Program-made: the position numbers and the translations under genes | The notes under the pieces: model-generated | Told to the model about the DNA's origin: nothing | Database searches by the model: none | Seen by the model: only the letters and a program-made list of their open reading frames with translations | Assembly: GCA_949317995.1 (NCBI GenBank) | Contig: OX439042.1 | Coordinates: 12,627,174 to 12,691,173, forward strand | Length of the DNA: 64,000 bases | Origin: Acholoe squamosa | Taxonomy: Eukaryota; Annelida; Polychaeta; Phyllodocida; Polynoidae | Direction: 5' to 3' | Shown: piece by piece, positions 2,918-63,750 of the stretch | Layout: every line of letters begins with the position of its first letter | How positions within the stretch are numbered: position 1 is the first letter of the stretch

Positions 2918-4405
2918 CTATTCCCCACCGTCCTCTCTTATTATTGCTAAACCTCCACCATCCTTCTGGTCCTCAGTGAGTATGCGGCTTCGCCGTACTA
3001 CCTTAGATACAGTACCTGAGCGTTTATTTGATGAAGCTGCTGCCTCCTTTCGAATCTTGATGAAATTCGCGACATCTTTGTCGATGGGCAATAACTTAAT
3101 CCGCTCCTTGGGTTTTTGAATACCAGCAGCTCTCTGTTCTGCCATTACACCTAGAAGCTGGGATATGTTAACCACTGGGCCAGGCTTTTTAATTCCTGGC
3201 ACTTTCTCAACTGTTTTGATCTGAGAATCAATGATCTTCTCCACCTTTCTTTTCTTCCATATCTCGCTGGATGATGGTGGGTACCAGTGCTCTTTCCGGA
3301 TGCTTGGTGATCTGCTCTGTGATCTGCTTGGTGACTTTGTATCATGTCTTGGGCTTTCACAATCATTGTCCTTGGTGGGAAGATTCGGCATTGATTTAGT
3401 GTACCGCATGACTGGCTGCACTGGGGGCAGATTTTGCCTTGCACTATACAGATCCACATCATTTACTTGTATTCTAATTTGTGGCACATCTGGTCTATAA
3501 AAACTGAATTCTCGATCAGATAACCGAGCGTTAATCTTTATATCAGATTTTGACTTTGTTAAGGCCTTTGCCTCATATATCGCTTGTAGTTCCTTACTCA
3601 GTCTATCATGATATGTTAATGGTTTATTTTCTTTGGTATTAGGAGCGCTCCATGGTCGATGACTTCTCCCCTCATACATGACTCTGGCTAAACCTTTTTC
3701 ATGCCTTGATGCAATGACCTTGACCTTGCTTGGTTTAAAGTTAGCGTCATGGAGTTGGGACATCCTGCCTAGCGCTTTGAGAGCTATTACTTTCTTTGCC
3801 TTCAAGCATTTATCAATATGCTCCATTTCTTTCTGGCCTTCAGTACTCCAGCTGTCGGCCATCTTGAATTCTGATGTATCAAACTGGTGAATACTCGCTC
3901 TTCCATCCCTCTTTAGCACCTCGACACAATCAGAATGTCCTAAGCGCTTGGCCAGAATATAAGGCGTAAACCCATCTTTGTTTGCAACATCAACATTAAG
4001 CCCAATCTTAACTATTGCCTGACATAGGATCTTACAAGTGTCACGATTACCGTTCATGACAACATAATGAAGGCCGGTGTATCCGCCATTGTCCTGTTTG
4101 CAAAGGTCAAGGCCACTCATTCCCTCCTGCAAAATGAGTTTGACCTCTTCATGTCGGTTCAACACACATGCCCAGAGTAACACATCCCGCTCAGTGGTCG
4201 GGTCCACATTGAAAACATTTGTGCCTTTCCGGAGTAACATCCTAAACATGTGGTTCCTACGTTTAGGATCCTGAACCATGAGTGCAGCCACTAGCAAATT
4301 CTGACCCTTGTCATTCTTAATGTTGACATTGAGGCCAGACCGTAGAAGGAGTTTCAACTGTTTGGTCAACCCGGCCGAGGCAGTCTGGAACGCTGTCCCC
4401 ACCAT
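2918..4405 (-). CDS. Ankyrin-repeat protein, 495 aa, single coding exon
   Basis: The N-terminal third carries about five ankyrin-type helix-turn-helix repeats (roughly residues 4-32, 33-66, 71-104, 107-140 and 144-166). The typical signatures GLNVNIKNDKGQNLL, GGYTGLHYVVMNGN and GLNVDVANKDGFTPYILA are visible. The rest is basic and poorly ordered, with a Ser/Arg-rich patch near residues 350-375 and Lys/Arg-rich tails. No catalytic domain, signal peptide or membrane segment is seen, so it is probably a cytosolic or nuclear scaffold. The start is firm: an in-frame TGA (4409-4411) lies two codons upstream and a splice acceptor lies at 4428-4429, so a 5' UTR intron precedes it. The plan loosely recalls ANKRD34-type proteins, but I cannot assign an orthologue. 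Confidence 0.85.
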   Translation of the reverse strand: MVGTAFQTASAGLTKQLKLLLRSGLNVNIKNDKGQNLLVAALMVQDPKRRNHMFRMLLRKGTNVFNVDPTTERDVLLWACVLNRHEEVKLILQEGMSGLDLCKQDNGGYTGLHYVVMNGNRDTCKILCQAIVKIGLNVDVANKDGFTPYILAKRLGHSDCVEVLKRDGRASIHQFDTSEFKMADSWSTEGQKEMEHIDKCLKAKKVIALKALGRMSQLHDANFKPSKVKVIASRHEKGLARVMYEGRSHRPWSAPNTKENKPLTYHDRLSKELQAIYEAKALTKSKSDIKINARLSDREFSFYRPDVPQIRIQVNDVDLYSARQNLPPVQPVMRYTKSMPNLPTKDNDCESPRHDTKSPSRSQSRSPSIRKEHWYPPSSSEIWKKRKVEKIIDSQIKTVEKVPGIKKPGPVVNISQLLGVMAEQRAAGIQKPKERIKLLPIDKDVANFIKIRKEAAASSNKRSGTVSKVVRRSRILTEDQKDGGGLAIIREDGGE

Positions 4406-4427
4406 TCTTCAGGTACCTCTGCCAAGT

Positions 4428-4429
4428 CT
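4428..4429 (-). other. Splice acceptor of the ankyrin gene 5' UTR intron
   Basis: On the minus strand a T-rich tract ends in TTATGTTTTTAG just before the exon that carries the start codon. The upstream non-coding exon and the promoter were not located. Confidence 0.6.
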
Positions 4430-4930
4430 AAAAACATAATAAGAAATTCATTTTCTTTTGTACAAAACTAGCATAACCCAGTGGGAACAGAATTTGTGAA
4501 CAGATTTGTCAATGTTGAATCAACCATATCAATTTTAATGTTGATGCAACATTAAGGGAGCATTCAACAATTATGTCACAAGTATTTAGGCATTTTTCAG
4601 GACTCACCCACCCCACTTGTCACTGTTTTTGTATGGAACATATAGAGGAACCCAAAGACCTCCCCATCCCCTAAGCAGTGACGTAATTGTTGAACGCTCT
4701 CTAATTCAATATTGAATTGTCAACATTGACGTGTCAACTAATTATCAGCATTGAAACAATGTTGAAACAACATTGAATCAACATAGAAATAAAAACGTTG
4801 AATCACAGCTGATTTGGTTATGTTATGTCATCTTCCAAATTCAACCATATATGTCAATCCTGAATCAACTGTTTACATGCAAACATGCTGACATTGATTC
4901 AACGTTGAATCAGTGTTGATGTGCTCAGTG
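4430..4930. repeat. Degenerate CAATGTTGAATCAAC repeat block
   Basis: Words such as CAATGTTGAATCAAC and CAACGTTGAATC recur in both orientations between about 4500 and 4915. The edges are CCCAGTGGGAA near 4480 and CTCAGTGGGAA near 4925. It looks like an old palindrome-rich DNA element that was later invaded by the MITE at 4556-4701. Confidence 0.55.
4556..4701. mobile_element. MITE, 146 bp, TAA target duplication
   Basis: The termini GGGAGCATTCAACAATTATG and (from the right end, reverse strand) GAGAGCGTTCAACAATTACG are inverted copies of about 24 bp. TAA flanks both ends (4553-4555 and 4702-4704). It has no coding capacity and is inserted in the CAATGTTGAATC repeat. The GGGAG start and TWA duplication match the 318-bp MITE family in this window. 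Confidence 0.75.
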
Positions 4931-22938: not shown

Positions 22939-23177
22939 ACTGCCGTAAAATCCTGCATGTAAGCCGCAGCTTATAGGCCATTTCAAACCCCTGGTGCAGC
23001 TTATAGCATCTCCAGGAACTCGGGGTGCGGCTTATACAAGGGGGTTTTACTTATATAGACTAAAGGAAGGAATGGGGACTATTTCAGAACTCTGGTGCGG
23101 CTTAGGCCTACAGCACAGCCCTGAACTCAGGGTGCGGCTTATACACGGGTGTGGCTTATACGCGGAGTTTTACCGTA
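22939..23177. mobile_element. MITE of the CCGTAAAATCC/GCGTATAAGC family
   Basis: GCCGTAAAATCCTGCATGTAAGCCGC at the left (given here by its first 17 bases as key part) pairs with GCTTATACGCGGAGTTTTACC at the right. Inner GGTGCGGCTTATA words repeat several times. It belongs with the copies at 54700, 59741 and 60434. Confidence 0.6.
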
Positions 23178-54103: not shown

Positions 54104-57100
54104 CTGAAATGGCCAATGAGTAACATATTAAAGCTAAATACATGTGAAGATGAAGTGCAGTACATCTGGTGCCACAATTTTGGGTGATTTATGATTTCAA
54201 AGTTGGAACTCCCAGGACAAGAAAAAGGAAAATTCTTTACTACTAAGAAATTTTCCCTATGTGATAACCTCTGAAACCCAGAATGGAATGACATCGTTGG
54301 GATTTCCAGTGTTGCCACATGCTCTTGACCAAAATAAAATATTGGCACATTCAACTTAAAGTATGTATGAAAGTAAAATAAAGTATGAATAAAGTATAAT
54401 CATGTCTTCTGAAATGCTGTATTTCTATGAGATTTAAGTAATTTCTAAGTTGTTTGCTAGGGTTTCACCTTAGTGGTGAAAGTGTGAAGAGAATTTTAAG
54501 TGAATTTGCGCGTGTCAGTGCGGAAAAAAAATTCATTCCTCATTAGGCTGAAAGTTTGGCAAGGTGTGCTTGCTGAAAATAACTGTTAAGATTCTAGAAT
54601 GTTGCAACTTTTATTGAAATTAAAGCATCAATTTCTAAGATCCTCCAAAATCCTCTCAAATTTCTCCATTTTTCTTGAAAATAAAGTATAAATAAAGTAC
54701 TGTAATATCCCGCGTATAAGGCGCAGCTCGCATATAAGGCGCCCCCCAACTCACAGGGGGGCTGTTTCGCATATAAGGCACCCCCCCTGAGGGGAGATTT
54801 TTGTCAATTTAGTACTGTTCTATAGTAAAAAATACTCCCCCTATAAGGCGAACCCCAAACTCAAGGCAATTTACCTCCCACGTATAAGACCCAGCAGCAT
54901 TTTGTTTGGCATATAAGACGCGCCTTATACGCAGGAGATTACGGTATCTGATAAAATTAAAGTATTAATAAAGTATAAATTTGCAAAAATGATAAAATAA
55001 AGTATTTAATTTAATTAAAGTACAATGTGGCAACACTGGATTTCCTATTTCCAGAAAAAGCCTGCCTGAATCAACTATGTAGCCCTCAAATGCTATGTAA
55101 GTTAAGAAAGTTGAGTTTACCTCGAGTAAGGTATCATTGGTGGTTTTCCCATGCTGTACAGGACCATCTTTCCTGCCATCTGTAAACATGAATATTGAGG
55201 AATGTAAATATATCAGTATGGTCATGCTAACATCAACAGTCTCTAATTGACAGCTTTAAAATCTAATCTTTCAGGGGCTTTATGTTTATCCACTATTCAA
55301 ATCTATTTTAAAACATCAGTTTTCCACTCACCTAATTCATAAAGGCTGCCCTCCTTGTGGATGAAACAAATGAAGTGGAAGTTGGTCTTCTCGTCACGAT
55401 CTGGTGCCTGAAGGAAATGGTATGATTTGAAGCACTACAATATGCAAATAAATGCCTGCAAGCTCCAGACGAGGTAACGAGCGTTTTTGTTTGAAAAAGC
55501 AGTAGGATAATGTGATTATAGGGCGGGGTCTGTGGTGTATCATCCCTGGGGCCCAAGAAAATTTGCAAATCTATAGGCCAAATCTATAAGATGAATTTTG
55601 GTGATTTTTGAGGATGTCTCTGTTTGGAATTTTTCTAAGACCCTCCTCAATATGAATGTTAAAATGATCTCAATTTATCTGGGTGAATCGCAAGATTGAC
55701 CCAGGTAGATCTAAAAATAAGTATGAAATAGGATCAAATATTTCAATATTATGGTAATGTACTTACAGCAGTCTGACCCTCATTAGCACTTGACTCATGG
55801 GCAGCTCCCAGTGCCTGAAAATAAAGCATTTCCATATTTACAAACAACTGGATTACTTATGGGGAAATGATTATTTCCTTTTTTGTTTGTGCACTCTAAA
55901 AAAAAATGCAAGAGAAAGATGACATCTGATATCTCTATTTTTTTCTCTTCTAAACTATACTGAAGCAACTGTACAGACTTTAGTATAGAGGATATGTATT
56001 GATCACCTCAGCATGAAATAAAACATCAATCAATCATTTAAGCAATGTTGGTAATTCAAAGTTCTTGGTCAACCTTTTGCTGGAAATTTATAGTGTAAAT
56101 ATGGGAAATGCATCCCTGGGATATTTTGAACTAAAATTACTTAAAAAGGGCAGGTGCGAAGTTTCAGTGAGAGCAATCTGCAATAAGGAATGAGTGAGGC
56201 AAAGGTTTGATCACTAACTTTGTCTGTCTCCATGTAGGCCGCACGCTCTGCTGGGCTCATCTCCTTGGTTGCTTCATAAAACTTACCAAAGTGAGCATCA
56301 GCTGGGAGGAGAGTAAAATTGAAGAATTTCTTTAAATCGTGACAGACAGAGGGATCTACATATGGGATGCAGGACTTCATGTCTTGTTGCAATAATTTCA
56401 GAATGTTGGTGTAATAGATTATCTACTCAGTAGTCAAATGCATACATAGATTGTCTGTTCAATTCACCCCTCAATTTATAAGCTCAAACTCATATGGTAC
56501 ATCATAGCACATCTCCCTAACTTTGCAGATGAAGCAGTTCTACTACAGTACTTTTATTTCCTGAAAGAGCCTCAGCTATGAGGTAGGACATGGGCATAAC
56601 TAACCTGTGATGTTGAGCTGTTCCCTGTTGTTGATAACAGCGTGCAGCAGTCCGATGGTGCCACATGCATTACCAATGGTCTGCTTCATGAAATAAAGAC
56701 CATCACCTGGTGAGGTCTTAGAACCAAGGGGTTCCGACTCCGACTAAGGGCAGAAAGTGAATAAGAGCGATAACATAGGAATGCAGAGTAATGAAACATT
56801 TGGAAGGCAAGCATACTATAGGGTTGCTTTTTAAATTCTGTCAATTTTATTCCATGATCAATAAATTTGGGCATACAGAGGAAGTCAAGACTATTGATTT
56901 CTGAAAGATGGGAATTATACATGAAAATTTTAGGAATCTAAGTTGCATATATTGTTAGTCTACATTTACTTCGGATCAGAAAATAATTGGTAGAAATTAC
57001 ATATACAACTATTGAAATGTGACATATTTAATCTTTATATAAATGTTAAGTTTTAGCCATTAGATGTGTACAGGACACTTGCTCAAGCATGAATGTTTAT

Positions 57101-60100
57101 AGTCTACATCACAGAACCTCAGTGTGGCTGCACTTATAAACATAGGTTTTATTTGGGAAACTGTCATTCTATAATAATCTTAATAATCACGGTCTAAATA
57201 TTTCAGCACAACTGAAGTTCAATTAAGGATACTTTTTTTGAATATCTGATACAGGTTTTAGTTTTACATTGTTGACTACAAGAGGACACAGTGTGCACAT
57301 TGACTATGTAAAACACTTATGGGGCCGCATGATACCTCATCTTCCTTAATTATCTTGATGCAGCAATATGGCAAGTGCCTTATGGCCTTATCATAACTGC
57401 ATGAATCGAGCACCAGTGAGTAACTCACCAAGCACCACTGGTGAGTAACTCACCAGACAGCACCGGTAACTTACCATGACTGCTGCAATTATGCATCCTA
57501 TTGACAAAAAATTACATTAATGCACCATGATGCCCTTAATAGTCTGAAGGGGTTAGAGACAGGGAATGCCACAATGTGAAAATGTTCCAAAACCAGCAAA
57601 TTATGTCAGTAACCACCATTGGATAAAGTAGCAGTAGCAAAATGCCAATCATGTCTTGGTGAATTTAGATCAGTTTTGATTTATCAGTCATTTGTTTTTT
57701 TTTATCTATGATTGAGAAATTTTGAACGCAGGTATTATGATTTGTTAACACTTCCTTTAGGTTGAATCTAAATTCACTTTCAAAAGGCGTTGCGACTCCA
57801 CACAAAGCATACGATATAAAGGCAAACCAGGGAGAGCCAAACCAATGCATGATAATCCTCTTGAGGGATTTGGAATAACCAGAAAGGTCCCTCTTTCTCC
57901 TCTCCCCTCTGATTTAAGAAAAATCAGTAAACCTGGATGTTACGCCATTTTTACCTTTTCTGTGATGGGGTAGAGCAGCATGACAGCGGCGACAGGACGG
58001 GGTACCATCATGAGTAGGTCAGGATCTAGGCCGTAGATATCGGTGAACTGCCATTTGTCGGTGCTCATACCCAGGCCTGCCACATACTGCATCCAACAAC
58101 GACATGGGAATACAAGCGTCATGCAGCGCAAATCATACAGTGTACTGGTACGCATAGGCCACACAATGCCAGCATGGTCTGTACATATCACATTCAAAAT
58201 AGGTTTTCAACTCTTTTTTTTTCTTTTAAAATATAACTTTACTGAATTTTTCTTTTCATGAAATAGTAATTTAAAGAGGCTGGCAGAGTCGGCACTCTTA
58301 ATGCCCCAGAACATAAGGCAAATTACTATGAACAAAAAAGAGTTGATGAGGACATCCAAAGACCAACTTCAGAAGATTGCATGGCCTCCCACAAATAAAG
58401 AACAGCACATTTGCCAAACATATACCAATTGGAAGCCTGTCAAAGCTAGCCTTTCTAATAACTGACCACCTATACCCATCACATGTATGACAGTTCTACA
58501 AGCTAATTCCCTGATTTAATGCTCTTAATGAAGACATTCCCATATCCAGGCTAGCTTTGAGAAAAGCGGGACATCTATAGAGGAGGGTGCCTGACAGTTT
58601 ATCGACATTGAGGTGTGGGACGTTGCAGCGTCCAAAATCAAAACCCTCTGACAGTTTAATGGTGGCAGGGTGCACTAAGTCTGCATCTTTTACTGTCATC
58701 ATGAATGCACCAATGCAGAACTGACATCACATTTACCACCACTGGTTTGGTGAATCAGTTCTTTTCATAGAATATGTATCAAGCCCCCAGGGTTGGAATC
58801 AATGTGGTCTAGGAAGGTGACGTCAGAGCTGCATTCTCATATCATGACAATGAGAAATCAAACTAAGCACATTGAAGCACTATGCTGCCTTCAAAAGTCA
58901 GGGATTGGTGTCTTTTTTATTCAGAGCACCTTAATAGTGGAAGGCTGTGAGACTGGTCACCACACATCCTTGTAGGGTAATACCTGTTCTGCTTTAGGGG
59001 ACAGTAACATGAGTGCCAGGACGGGCCGGGGCACTGATTTGAGTCCTTCCTCAGTCAGATCATAAAGATCGACAAACTGGTAGTCCTCCGTCACACCCAG
59101 GTTTTGGATGTACTGAGGATAAACCCAGCAAGCAGCAGTATAAGGGAAAACCATTCAGAAAAAGAGTCAGAAGTCACCAAAATCAGTAGCATAGATTTGT
59201 AGATTTCATGTTTTCTGTTTTTATTTTGTTTTCTTTTTATCAGATCTAAATGTTCACACACTAGCAGGTACAATGAGACTCTAAACCTGCTGGTGATAAA
59301 TGCCCAAAGAAATCCAGAATTTGACACCACTCCTGCTCTATCAAAGAGCAGGACTGATGGACATTTAAATAAGTCAAAGTAATTCTATGAATGTGAAACT
59401 ATACAAAAAGTGAAATGCTCATACTTGCAATGATGCCGGTGTGGCATTAGATAAGTTCCGGGGTGGAAATAAGTTCCAGGAGTAGGGTTCTATAAATTTA
59501 AGTTTTGTTATGATGATTTTGATATAATGATCACTTTTCCTATGTATAATGGACCTATTCTACAAAAGTATTCAGAGTTACCGCGCCAAGCTATTTACAG
59601 CACTTTGCTTTTTTTAGAAAACAGTAAGAAGTGCTGTCAGTACAAACCTGATGACTCTACTACAGTTAATAGTCCTGTACCCAGTACACGACAATGTCCT
59701 GTATATTTATAATCGGGGCTCAGAGTGTATACAGGAACTACCGTAATCTCCCGCGTATAAGACGCACCTAGAGTTTTGGATTATGCCCAAAAGAATGAAA
59801 TATTCATAACTTTTCTTCTACTGAATGGATTTTCAAAATTTAAAAAGCTATGTGTAGCTCTGGCCTCCCAGACACCACTGGAGCCATCTATGTCATAATA
59901 TGACTTAGGGGGAGTGTAATATATCAAAACGAAGCTCTTGGTGTCCCCCTTGTGGATCCAGGGAGAACCAAAACCTCATGTATAAGACGCGTCTTATACG
60001 CGGGAGATTACGGTATTGCGCAAAAATATATTGAAATTTATTGATGAAAGAACAGGTGTCAAAATTTGCATATAGGCGGGGAGAGGGCTGTCAGATTTAA

Positions 60101-62450
60101 CCTCCCCTTTGGCCTATTTCCTTTCTCTCTGTGTCCCGTCGGTACCATGAACTAGTTGTATCATAAAATGTCACTGAATCTTAATTTATCTTTGTTTATT
60201 ATGTGCTATATATATGAAAAGAGTGGATCTAATGTTAAAATTGTCATAGCATAGCTGTGTGCAGAATACTACCCCGGAACTTAATTGTACCCGGAACTTA
60301 TTTTAAGGTACGCCGGCGAAGAATTGTAATGGCTGGCGTAGGACCTTGGGACGCAGGCCAGAATGGCCTGGCATGACCTCAGCTTTCTAATGGTGAAAGA
60401 ATTTTTCAAATCGGCCTATTAGAAAAAAAGATACCGTAAACTCCCGCGTATAAGACGCGTCCTCTACGCCAAACAAAATGCTGGGGAGTCTTATAGGATT
60501 TTTTCAAGTTGGGGGGGCGTCTTATACGAGGGGTAATTTTACTATAGAAATGTATTGAATTTACAAATATCAGCATTAAAATGTGCGTCTTATACGCGAA
60601 AATGCATGTGCTGAGTTTGGGGTGCGTCTTATACGCGCAGCGCGTCTTCTACGCGGGAGTTTACGGTAGCAGAATTTTTGTGAATTTGTTTTATTTTCAA
60701 CAAATTTCCTCTTTCTTTGAGTTTATAAATATGGGTACATATGGCCTGCGTGAGAGGGAAATGGCCTGTGTAAGATGCCATGACACAGGCCACTCTGGCC
60801 TGCTTTAATAAAAAGTTTTCAGCAACACTGTACTTGGGATAAAAAAAATGGGAAGATTCAATTACAAATTTGATCTCTCCCTTAAACTGAGTCTCGTTTT
60901 TTAATGTGTCCCAATTTGTTTTCATGGAGGAAATGATACATTTCTATATTAGTATACACACATGGCTAATGTAATGTTATGGTGATGGTACCAGTGGCAA
61001 AATGCCTGTGTGACTTATGTCGCAGGGGAATGGTCAATGATTAGCTCTGTTGTATTGATTACCAGTACCAGATGATCCACTGTCCCAATAACCATAATCC
61101 AACATGCATGATTACCGTATTCGACCTAATAAGCACCCTCCAGCCAATGAGCGCCCCCCCAACTCCCCGGAGTCCTTTAGGAGCCTTTTACAGACCTAGA
61201 AAAAGGCATAATTTTCACGATTTTGGAGGCAGTTAAACATACTAAACTACAGTAAAAATAATTTGCAAGTGCCCTGTGTGCTTATTAGGTCGAACACTAC
61301 CCAATTTTCATGATACCGTATTTTAATGACCTTTCCCTCAAATAAAAAGATTCTGTTATGATTATTGAAATGTGTACAACTATAGAGGAGAGCAGCAGGT
61401 TTATCTGCTGCATCTGATGACATCACGATTGATCAAAAAGGCCATCAAAAAACGGTATCATGAAAATTGGGTAGGGAATGTTTCTGGAATACACCCTCTT
61501 AGTCAATGTTAGCATACCTGGTAATAGGGCATAGACCTAAATAGGCTGAAAATTACTTCTTCGAGACGGATCTAGTATTGATGCAAATTTTCAATTTTTG
61601 TATTAATCTTTTTCTTTAAATTACATTCATTTAATTGAAAGGGAAGGCCCCTCTTATAGATGGGGACAAAAATTCTTGTTCCCCCTCCCCCCCCCCCCCC
61701 ACGAGAGAACTGGACTTGGGTCTCCTGCCCAAAAAGGCCAAATCCACTAAACCCCGCCCCTTTGCCAGGCTTTGGCTTTGTTAAAAAAAAATAACCACTT
61801 GCATTCTAATCTACCGGTATTCTTTATGTAAAATATACTAATTCAAGGGATCCGCCTCATTTTTAATCAGATTTGAAAAGTCACAGCATTCATCAGACAC
61901 AATTGCCAAAATCAAGGCCAAGAGAAGTTAAGTCTAATTTTACTCCTTAGGAAGGGTAAGACTCCGGTAGTACTACTAGTAGTAGGGGGCTGCTTGTTGG
62001 TTTCCCCTGCCCTCCCCTTCCCCCCCCCCCCCCCCTTTCATTCGTCGCATTCCTCTTTTACAAAAACTATTAGAGTGATCAAACCATAATCCCCATGTTA
62101 CATCACACAGTGACAGTGGAGTGGTGCCTGGATTGTGTTTTATGATAATTAACAAGCCCAGAGACGGTTCCAGACCAGTGTCGTGACTCAGAGCTCGCGT
62201 CAGCAGGCGTCTTCAGTAAAGCCGGCACCGAGTGAGACCGAGAAAGACGCCGGCCGGCGTCACGCCACCGAGTGTCACCCACCTTGTTAATGACCTGAAA
62301 AACAAAAACAACAAAATTAAACACACACATCGCGAGGTATATTATTCACAGACATGGTGCGACAGAAGTGACGGTTGTAGCGGGTTAAATAATGCGGTAA
62401 TGCCTTACGTCTGGGTTAGATTCGAGCGGGAGCCACCTTATTCCTGCCAT
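54020..62450 (-). CDS. UCHL3: Ubiquitin C-terminal hydrolase, UCHL3 type, 224 aa with one version of the duplicated exon
   Basis: This is the whole gene span; exons are listed separately. It is a peptidase C12 cysteine protease that removes small adducts from the C-terminus of ubiquitin and NEDD8 in the cytosol and nucleus. The order of conserved parts is [18 protein letters not shown], a duplicated exon, then oxyanion Gln83 and nucleophile Cys89 in [13 protein letters not shown], catalytic His163 in NFHFI, and Asp178 in ELDGRK. The coding sum is 675 nt with the 57955 version or 672 nt with the 58984 version, all in frame. Human UCHL3 has 230 residues with Cys95, His169 and Asp184; the uniform shortfall of six lies in the acidic linker just before the Cys exon. 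Sequence favours UCHL3 over UCHL1 (MVPRPV, ELDGRK), though invertebrates often have one gene for both. Confidence 0.95.
54700..54944. mobile_element. MITE, CCCGCGTATAAG family, TA duplication
   Basis: CTGTAATATCCCGCGTATAAG at the left (key part) pairs with CGCAGGAGATTACGG at the right. TA flanks both (54698-54699 and 54945-54946). Inner ATATAAGGCGCCCCCC words repeat. It lies in the last intron of the UCHL3 gene. Confidence 0.75.
55121..55179 (-). CDS. UCHL3: UCHL3 exon with catalytic Asp
   Basis: 59 nt, phase 1 to 0. With the split codon it reads [20 protein letters not shown]; the first residue is the catalytic Asp178. Confidence 0.94.
55332..55407 (-). CDS. UCHL3: UCHL3 exon with catalytic His
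   Basis: 76 nt, phase 0 to 1. It reads [18 protein letters not shown] then EGSLYEL; His163 in NFHFI is the catalytic base. Confidence 0.94.
55767..55814 (-). CDS. UCHL3: UCHL3 exon, crossover-loop part
   Basis: 48 nt, phase 0 to 0. It reads [16 protein letters not shown], the segment of the active-site crossover loop that limits substrate size in this family. Confidence 0.93.
56219..56301 (-). CDS. UCHL3: UCHL3 exon, [14 protein letters not shown]
   Basis: 83 nt, phase 1 to 0, with acceptor CTCCCAG and donor AAA|GTTAGT. It reads [18 protein letters not shown] and then RAAYMETDK, matching the MSPEERA helix of UCHL3. Confidence 0.93.
56605..56743 (-). CDS. UCHL3: UCHL3 exon with nucleophile Cys
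   Basis: 139 nt, phase 0 to 1. The acceptor TTAG itself provides an in-frame TAG just upstream, so the exon start is firm. It reads [15 protein letters not shown], then [20 protein letters not shown] with Gln83 and Cys89. Confidence 0.95.
57336..57353 (-). CDS. Possible 18-nt micro-exon of UCHL3
   Basis: An AG | 18 nt | GTATCA segment, phase 0 to 0, codes IIKEDE. Including it would extend the acidic linker and bring Cys, His and Asp to positions 95, 169 and 184, as in human UCHL3. The acceptor (CATCAAG) is weak and the site lies beside repeat DNA, so this is only a candidate. Confidence 0.25.
57955..58086 (-). CDS. UCHL3: UCHL3 duplicated exon, version B (canonical-like)
   Basis: 132 nt, phase 0 to 0. 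It reads [19 protein letters not shown], then [19 protein letters not shown] and YPITEK, close to the usual UCHL3 sequence of this region. Acceptor GGATGCAG, donor AAG|GTAAAA. Confidence 0.93.
58984..59112 (-). CDS. UCHL3: UCHL3 duplicated exon, version A (divergent)
   Basis: 129 nt, phase 0 to 0, 897 bp upstream of version B. It reads [18 protein letters not shown], then [19 protein letters not shown] and SPKAEQ. It keeps the fold-defining residues (LG, QF, D-Y, VPRPV, MLL-P) but differs elsewhere, and the intron just before both versions is similar (GTTTTCCC / GTATTCCC). The two are probably spliced in a mutually exclusive way; using both would duplicate a structural unit. Confidence 0.9.
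59741..60013. mobile_element. MITE, CCGTAATCTCCCGCGTATAAG family, TA duplication
   Basis: Near-perfect TIRs start CCGTAATCTCCCGCGTATAA and end TTATACGCGGGAGATTACGG. TA flanks both (59739-59740 and 60014-60015). It is non-coding. Confidence 0.85.
60434..60666. mobile_element. MITE, CCGTAAACTCCCGCGTATAAG variant, TA duplication
   Basis: It starts CCGTAAACTCCCGCGTATAA and ends CTACGCGGGAGTTTACGG, flanked by TA (60432-60433 and 60667-60668). Inner GCGTCTTATACGCG words recur. It is a close relative of the copy 420 bp upstream. Confidence 0.85.
61118..61297. mobile_element. Inverted-repeat element, GTATTCGACCTAATAAGCAC ends
   Basis: GTATTCGACCTAATAAGCAC at the left and GTGCTTATTAGGTCGAACAC at the right are inverted. 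The interior is non-coding. It abuts the next element. Confidence 0.7.
61300..61471. mobile_element. Inverted-repeat element, CCCAATTTTCATGATACCG ends, TA duplication
   Basis: CCCAATTTTCATGATACCGT and ACGGTATCATGAAAATTGGG are perfect inverted ends. TA flanks both sides (61298-61299 and 61472-61473). Confidence 0.8.
62283..62294 (-). CDS. UCHL3: UCHL3 12-nt micro-exon
   Basis: The exon GTCATTAACAAG codes VINK, phase 0 to 0, between a long T-rich acceptor (TTTTTCAG) and the donor GTGGGT. It fits exactly between NPD of exon 1 and the Y that opens the duplicated exon, as in the family. Confidence 0.88.
62409..62450 (-). CDS. UCHL3: UCHL3 first coding exon
   Basis: ATG at 62450-62448. 42 nt code [14 protein letters not shown], the standard N-terminus of UCHL3, ending at the donor GAC|GTAAGG. 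Confidence 0.94.
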
Positions 62451-62560: not shown

Positions 62561-62689
62561 ACAGTTTGTTATGTTAACTCGTGTCATGGGGGCATTCTGG
62601 TAACGGATGGGTTGGGCGCGGATTCACCGTCCGCCGCGTCCGCCCCGGGCGTCCGCCAGCAATTCCAACCCGCTCTCCCCCCTTATATG

Positions 62690-63175
62690 GGTCTAGACGC
62701 CTAAAATCGACAGTGTGACATGGCCTTTTCTTAAAATCGACAAAGGACAAGGAGCTTCTAGGGACAAGGACATGGGACAAAAAAGATAGTGTAGTGGTCA
62801 GCGGAAAATGTCATGGAGAAACCGGGACTCGAAGTCGAACCCGGGACCCTCCAACTTCGAAGCGGCTGGTCTTCCTCTGAGCTATTTCCCCTGGCCTGAC
62901 ATTTCCACTTTCCATCCACACCTGGATCGGTATGATACACACTAGGGGGGGCAGTGATTACCCGGAGACCCGCCCCTGGGGGTCTGCCACCGAGTACAGG
63001 GAATTACTGCCCCTACAATAGTAACAGGGGACATGGACTTTTCTTAAAATCGACATGTGACATGGAGCTTAGTGACAAGGACAGAGGAAAATACAAATTT
63101 AGTGACATTTGACATGGGCTTTTCTTAAAATCGACAAGGGACATGGGGACCCCCCATCTAGACCCCCCCCCCCCC
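62690..63175 (-). repeat. TTTCTTAAAATCGACA repeat, copy A (filled by a SINE-like insert)
   Basis: It matches copy B at 63519-63750 nearly base for base, apart from one insertion at 62791-63017. TTTCTTAAAATCGACA words are separated by GGGACATGG text. Confidence 0.85.
62791..63017 (-). mobile_element. tRNA-related SINE-like insert, ATAGT duplication
   Basis: ATAGT flanks it on both sides (62786-62790 and 63018-63022), and copy B at 63600-63630 is the empty site. On the minus strand an A box TAGCTCAGAGG (62874-62884) and B box GGTTCGACTTC (about 62831-62841) mark a tRNA-like unit, itself flanked by inverted GTGGAAATGTCA / TGACATTTTCC words. The T-loop region has extra bases, so it is not a functional tRNA. 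Confidence 0.75.
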
Positions 63176-63342
63176 CCCCTTATGGTAGGGTGGACGGAGC
63201 ATATTTTTAAAACGATATGATTTATTAATGCCCAGGTTACAACTAATTAAAAACACCTCACTACTGAACCCTTTCAGGTTTCAGACAGATCTGAGTCTCC
63301 ATATTGGAACTTGCATGTTGAACATAACCCAGCTATGGCGGT

Positions 63343-63418
63343 GTCCCTGTGTATAATATGATCAAATAATTCACATATATGTCCCTGTGTATAATATGAT
63401 CAAATAATTCACATATAT
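63343..63418 (+). repeat. Direct duplication, 2 x 38 bp
   Basis: GTCCCTGTGTATAATATGAT... is repeated exactly at 63343 and 63381. Confidence 0.9.
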
Positions 63419-63518
63419 TTGTTATAGAATGAATGTTTACATATTGTTGACTGCTTATGGAGCATGTTTGGTGTATTTTAGCACAAGTTTGGAGGTGTTA
63501 GAGCCACAATAACCAAAT

Positions 63519-63750
63519 GGGTCTAGACCCCTAAAATCGACAGTGTGACATGGCCTTTTCTTAAAATCGACAAAGGACATGGAGCTTCTAGGGACAAGGA
63601 CATGGGACAAAAAAGATAGTGACAGGGGACATGGACTTTTCTTAAAATCGACATGTGACATGGAGCTTAGTGACAAGGACAGAGGAAAATACAAATTTAG
63701 TGACATTTGACATGGGCTTTTCTTAAAATATATATCGACAAGGGACATCT
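63519..63750 (-). repeat. TTTCTTAAAATCGACA repeat, copy B (empty site)
   Basis: It has the same text as copy A without the insert. It reads AAAAAGATAGTGACAGGGG across the insertion point. A short TATATA expansion lies near 63728. Confidence 0.85.

Follow-up and report, generated by a model that had tools for sequence, protein, structure and literature searches.

The question raised by this locus is whether a single deubiquitinase gene in the annelid Acholoe squamosa specifies two enzymes by choosing between two versions of one exon. The stretch of DNA analysed, referred to here as the window, is 64,000 nucleotides long, and its minus strand holds a complete gene of the UCHL1/UCHL3 type, with nine exons per transcript and GT-AG borders at all introns. 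Exon 3 of this gene is present in two versions, termed A and B. The best explanation, to which we assign a probability of about 0.75, is an old duplication of exon 3, with one version taken by each transcript and two predicted enzymes as the outcome. There is good support for substitution between tandem homologous exons of a UCHL3-type enzyme; expression of both exons, strict exclusivity and a biochemical difference between the products are what we infer in addition.

Organization and Identity of the Gene

Exon 1 carries the start codon (62450-62409, minus strand, as are all features of the gene) and aligns with UCHL3 residues 1-14. Exon 2 is a microexon of 12 nt (62294-62283) with GT-AG borders, and it encodes VINK at the place of UCHL3 residues 15-18, VTNQ. 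This microexon, which lies directly 5' of the duplicated exon, is needed for the alignment with UCHL3. Exon 3A (59112-58984) is 129 nt in length, is of phase 0-0 and encodes 43 amino acids that correspond to UCHL3 residues 19-61. An intron of 897 nt (58983-58087) separates it from exon 3B (58086-57955), which is also of phase 0-0 and encodes 44 amino acids in 132 nt. The remaining exons are exon 4 (56743-56605), which carries the catalytic Gln and Cys; exon 5 (56301-56219); exon 6 (55814-55767); exon 7 (55407-55332), with the catalytic His in the motif NFHFICF; exon 8 (55179-55121), with the catalytic Asp in the motif ELDGR, its codon being split with exon 7; and exon 9 (54103-54020), in which the coding sequence ends with the stop codon TGA (54022-54020). 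The coordinates, lengths, spacing, phase and GT-AG borders that the first-pass annotation had given for the exon pair are all exact, and the partners it had named, VINK upstream and position 56743 downstream, agree with this gene model.

The predicted isoforms, of 223 amino acids with A and 224 with B, are both complete and in frame. Aligned end to end with human UCHL3, isoform A scores 240.8 bits and isoform B 264.3 bits, and the alignments with human UCHL1 are weaker (189.8 and 189.2 bits, respectively). Against Pfam PF01088 (peptidase C12), for which the cut-off is 27, the full isoforms score 225.3 bits (A) and 230.0 bits (B). Both carry residues aligned with UCHL3 Q89, C95, H169 and D184, which we take to be the catalytic residues of that enzyme. 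For C95 this role is described in PMC5665613. Both isoforms also stop level with the C-terminus of UCHL3, without a long extension of the UCHL5 or BAP1 kind. By these features the predicted enzyme is a peptidase C12 (UCH) of the UCHL1/UCHL3 subtype.

The splice sites of the duplicated exons had been described as good, and this holds in part. GT-AG borders are present at both exons, but both donors, CAG/GTATTA for A and AAG/GTAAAA for B (the slash marks the exon border), lack the G at +5 that is found in six of the seven other donors, and the pyrimidine tract before B is weak, at 12/20, although values of 11 and 13 occur at two other acceptors. The U1 pairing energies of the A and B donors, -7.2 and -6.8, fall within the range of the other donors (-1.2 to -10.1). 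The further claim that the introns preceding the two exons are similar is not supported by comparison with dinucleotide shuffles. For the last 60 nt upstream of A and B, 131 of 200 shuffles reach the best local alignment, and for the last 890 nt 92 of 200 do so. Only the last 200 nt come near to standing out, marginally and through an A-rich run (11 of 200 shuffles reach the score), and for the 200 nt downstream of the exons 145 of 200 shuffles reach the score observed. BLAST of one entire intron against the other gave at best a match of 61 percent over 88 nt (E = 0.061), located about 2.1 kb before exon A.

Constraint on Exon A and the Age of the Duplication

Of 43 aligned residues, versions A and B have 21 in common and differ at the other 22, and the alignment has a gap of one codon; as had been proposed, B is the canonical, UCHL3-like version. 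Each exon on its own is recognized by PF01088, with 35.3 bits for A and 40.1 for B over the same cut-off of 27, and A alone matches human UCHL3 at E = 1.2e-5 in a set of 177,635 PDB sequences. In a neutral simulation, B was mutated to the 53 differences observed in 129 nt; among 20,000 runs, 31 percent (6156) ended free of stop codons. In none of these 6156 stop-free sequences did the score to UCHL3 rise above 83, against 98 for A, or the score to UCHL1 above 62, against 91 for A, and six reached the identity of A to B. Nei-Gojobori estimates for the pair are dN 0.47 and dS 1.20, which are rough values given that there are 31 synonymous sites. The VPRPV core is common to A and B, and of the 22 positions at which human UCHL1 and UCHL3 are identical A keeps 14 and B 15; A is therefore about as constrained as B at these shared positions. 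The Pfam score, the neutral simulations, the excess of dS over dN and the shared residues kept all argue that A is constrained as a protein segment. Judged by these measures, it has been under protein-level constraint for most of its history and is not old debris.

Age can be judged from the codons and the introns. The same codon is used at 9 of the 21 residues identical in A and B, and 8.6 would be expected from the codon usage of the gene, so the synonymous sites are near saturation. This saturation is incomplete, because the third positions of A and B are still more alike than when shuffled (19 versus 11.2, a value reached by 26 of 5000 shuffles). With such codons, and with flanking introns that resemble each other hardly more than shuffles do, the duplication of exon 3 is old.

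Copy Number in the Genome

The organism's own genome (1.48 Gb in 63 contigs) was searched for the C12 family, and all 10 of the 10 first-look candidates were scored. Seven matches were obtained, of which three lie within the UCHL3-type gene and four at two further loci, on C1 and C12. Translations from there include "IPNSCATHALLSVLLNC" and "INNVCATQAILASLMNS", and by their motifs we take these two loci to resemble BAP1 and UCHL5. The locus described here thus appears to be the sole UCHL1/UCHL3-type gene of the genome. Among the best candidates scored from the 1.48 Gb, neither a retrocopy nor a third genomic copy of the exon was found, and the matches to A are A and B only. Within the window, a six-frame profile search gave no third copy above noise among the best matches listed, the next-best match after A and B scoring 6 bits; the profile included A and B themselves, so their own E-values are circular and are not used. 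Searches of prokaryote genomes and of viral contigs confirmed no relatives; given what these sets contain, the result is uninformative on conservation.

Protein Consequences

All of the catalytic residues, together with D33, Y35 and the VPRPV core, are common to the two isoforms. In the ubiquitin-recognition loop (UCHL3 residues 34-43) A and B differ at 7 of 10 residues. The differences are not significantly concentrated there, given 15 of 33 over the rest of the segment (p = 0.28). The changes in the loop of A include G36D (as in BAP1), D38T, P39E and L41G, along with a Lys at position 43. Version A departs from residues common to UCHL1, UCHL3 and B at W29Y, G36D and T59A, and it further differs from UCHL3 by F56S and I58K.

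Residues 34 and 37 are among the ubiquitin contacts, and in PfUCHL3 the binding of a peptide to the recognition site affects positions 38, 39, 40 and 43 (PMC11126973). A and B differ at contact 34 itself and around both contacts. The first-pass annotation had guessed that alternative use of the exons could change ubiquitin/NEDD8 preference or activity. The structural half of this guess stands, in that the segment includes contacts 34 and 37 and that residue 34 and its surroundings differ; the suggested NEDD8 preference finds no such footing, with D33 in both versions. In UCH37 the counterpart of D33 lies near ubiquitin R72/Nedd8 A72, and the identity of this residue as D or E uncouples the two activities, although D33E in PfUCHL3 has a mild effect and does not select between Ub and Nedd8 (PMC6837540). 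A NEDD8 switch through D33 is unsupported, the residue being Asp in A as in B. An altered grip on ubiquitin, or an altered turnover, would be likelier than a NEDD8 switch.

The direction of such a change can be approached through BAP1. Version A has the tripeptide Y-D-L, as do BAP1 and calypso, and isoform A scores higher than isoform B against both calypso 6cga (45.4 versus 38.6) and BAP1 8svf (40.9 versus 34). Y33 of BAP1 corresponds to Y35 of UCHL3, and the Km for Ub-AMC is 2.9 uM for BAP1N as against 0.02 for UCHL3 (PMC5665613). It is a fair prediction that A would handle ubiquitin more weakly or more slowly. The annelid isoforms differ from BAP1 and calypso in lacking a C-terminal domain, and the genome has its separate BAP1-like and UCHL5-like loci.

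Exclusive Use and the Competing Explanations

The gene, apparently the only one of the UCHL1/UCHL3 type, would have gained two interchangeable exons when its exon 3 was duplicated in tandem long ago, and each transcript most likely takes one of them to yield two full-length deubiquitinases. The reading frame does not enforce exclusivity, since both exon lengths are multiples of three: the product with both exons (267 amino acids) and that with neither (180 amino acids) are in frame, with UCHL3 residues 19-61 duplicated or deleted. Steric blocking is unlikely because the intron between A and B is 897 nt long. With this spacing a donor-to-branch-point distance below 50 nt is improbable, and neither a frame break nor a mixture of U2 and U12 introns was found in the gene, all introns being GT-AG. 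The absence of these three safeguards is common, as taking out the frame, steric and U12 classes leaves 484 human clusters to other mechanisms (PMC5740500).

Pairing of the docking/selector kind was sought in approximately 900 nt of each of the three introns. The best pairings observed were equalled or bettered in 8, 2 and 2 of the 23 shuffles, so that with these few shuffles no significant competing RNA structure was found in the part searched. The intronic flanks contain one UGCAUG, which we take to be an RBFOX-type motif. It lies 33 nt upstream of exon B (58125-58120) and is the single match in four flanks of 250 nt, with 0.1 expected per 250 nt; as a possible regulatory signal it is a hint only. 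On this proposal one exon would be repressed in a regulated manner to make the pair exclusive, as with the tandem exons of U2AF1 (PMC5224494). The candidate handles for repression are the weak donors of both exons and, before B, the weak pyrimidine tract and the UGCAUG. Selection against proteins with both segments or with neither would assist. Some caution comes from human surveys: neighbouring exons may be highly similar and yet, in many cases, not be subject to exclusive splicing (PMC5740500), and tandem duplication is common while exclusive splicing of the duplicates is rare by comparison (PMC9741552). Half of the 236 human substitutions between tandem-duplicated exons are internal exclusive exons, and the vast majority of these substitutions are of ancient origin, with 80.6 percent of their predicted ligand residues retained (PMC9741552).

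If exclusivity does not hold, both exons could be constitutive, or A could be a cassette added to B, and the 267-residue protein would contain the segment twice. The lengths permit this, the A-B junction is in frame without a stop, and an always-included duplicated exon has precedent in the vertebrate COE genes (PMC2394523). We nevertheless regard double inclusion as very unlikely, for it would insert 43-44 residues between UCHL3 residues 18 and 62, inside a compact fold, and each exon alone retains roughly two thirds of the positions at which UCHL1 and UCHL3 agree (14/22 and 15/22), as would be expected for use in the same slot. The UCH fold is both compact and knotted, and UCH-L5 has been described as topologically knotted. 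The border of A and B possibly lies, we presume, in the first helix of this fold. The argument would then apply that a segment with its ends inside secondary structure cannot be a cassette (PMC5740500). A different objection is that A, functional for most of its existence, has recently fallen silent and is now a relic left out of every transcript. The weak donor of A and its greater divergence (a BLOSUM score to UCHL3 of 98, versus 148 for B) fit this explanation, which we hold to be unlikely given that A has kept an open frame, intact splice signals and the core residues despite high synonymous divergence, when just 31 percent of neutral simulations taken to the divergence of A remain without stops. 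A loss recent enough to have left no trace in the sequence would be compatible with these features.

Other explanations would deny A any part in a second enzyme. Many alternative exons are known to control output, and A might be a regulatory or poison exon that, for example, diverts mRNA. It adds neither a stop nor a frameshift, however, and it keeps the residues of the protein family, which makes this highly improbable. It is barely credible that A is an artefact of assembly or a stray exon of another gene, an idea for which no favourable evidence was found: A is identical to B at 21 of 43 residues and has an intron context of its own, no match to it was found elsewhere in the assembly among the best candidates scored, and both exons are on one contig of 84 Mb. 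An old duplication with one version used per transcript remains our preferred reading.

A Possible Parallel with UCHL1 and UCHL3

UCHL3 is a fast hydrolase, and UCHL1 is a tight binder with slow turnover. Through the A/B pair, splicing may achieve the division of labour for which jawed vertebrates have these two genes, a suggestion that we offer only tentatively and consider quite unlikely. Over the 43 residues the two pairs are about equally far apart, with 21 residues in common for A and B and 22 for UCHL1 and UCHL3. B has 27 identities to UCHL3 and 16 to UCHL1, and A has 19 and 20, respectively. Among the 22 sites at which A and B differ, A matches UCHL1 at 7, where 2.3 are expected (P ~ 0.004 under a rough BLOSUM null), and among the 24 sites at which A and UCHL3 differ it does so at 6, where 1.8 are expected (P ~ 0.005). 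At two of the seven UCHL1-like sites (32 and 40) the residue is also that of UCHL3, and because A's residue there is common to both proteins it is B that has changed. The other UCHL1-like residues of A may be ancestral. The BLOSUM score places A nearer to UCHL3 (98) than to UCHL1 (91), which counts against a UCHL1-like reading. A is also not simply UCHL1, since UCHL1 is described as specific to jawed vertebrates (PMC7542113). If the parallel is true, the same split would have been reached along two routes, once by duplicating an exon and once by duplicating a gene.

Other Features of the Window and the Mitochondrial Contig

Palindromic elements built on GCGTATAAGACGC are found at 59753-60654 and 54712-54932, in introns 2 and 8 of the gene, and at 23134-23163. 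The window has 17 matches to GCGTATAAGACGC with at most two mismatches, where 0.27 are expected, and the arms are inverted; the elements resemble short inverted-repeat transposons. Direct repeats of 105 and 114 nt, with copies 98 and 99 percent identical, lie at 62687-63729, immediately upstream of exon 1, and one of these copies is seemingly interrupted at about 62800-63010 by a stretch that, by eye, is tRNA-like and SINE-looking. ARAGORN found no tRNA genes in the window. Farther away, at 2918-4405 on the minus strand, an open reading frame of 495 amino acids has N-terminal ankyrin repeats (Pfam Ank_2, E = 2.2e-16).

The mitochondrial contig (L011) reads well with code 5, and its genes, recognised by eye, are all on one strand. 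Their order is nad4L-nad4, an rRNA-sized gap, and then nad1-nad3-nad2-cox1-cox2-cox3-nad6-cob-atp6, with nad5 presumed at the contig end, which fits the four derived annelid positions of PMC2639372. The gap between nad4 and nad1 contains, at 4368-4870, a long tandem repeat of a short unit that reads Met-Tyr on both strands.

Comparison with Known Systems

Human UCHL3 (1UCH, 1XD3) and UCHL1 belong to the same length class as the annelid isoforms, without a C-terminal extension and with the same catalytic residues. The annelid gene and human UCHL1 both have nine exons per transcript (the count for UCHL1 being from PMC7542113). Unlike its human counterparts in this comparison, the annelid gene has two versions of exon 3. 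If both are used, an apparently single-copy deubiquitinase would have two ubiquitin-binding faces selected by splicing, and it would provide a natural experiment on the loop residues of UCHL1/UCHL3 that set affinity and turnover. A family that diverged by gene duplication in vertebrates could then diverge at the level of the exon too.

In searches of PubMed Central, no mutually exclusive exon pair in UCHL3 or another UCH gene was encountered among the papers listed. Neither UCHL nor ubiquitin occurs as a term in the main text of PMC5740500, nor does UCH in that of PMC9741552. A survey in beetles lists the enzyme family among alternatively spliced loci, and the part of it drawn on here holds no exclusive-exon case for the family (PMC12599511).

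As a type, the pair resembles the entries of the human catalogues (PMC5740500 and PMC9741552) in that its exons are adjacent, internal, homologous, of the same phase, of near-equal length and old, and most likely also in that ligand-contact residues are partly kept. In U2AF1, the tandem homologous exons Ab and 3 are chosen by unequal splice signals together with repression; the branch points there have been mapped, and a stem loop flanked by long inverted repeats is conserved (PMC5224494). In the introns around A and B, by contrast, no significant structure was found in the part searched. A parallel in annelids is COQ2, where tandem homologous exclusive exons are used one at a time, as is proposed for A and B (PMC12403961). 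COQ2 is a different enzyme, and its exons are supported by transcript evidence from alvinellids. Tandem exons that substitute for each other, as the two versions of exon 3 are predicted to do, are thus a known kind of arrangement, with an annelid example in COQ2 (PMC12403961).
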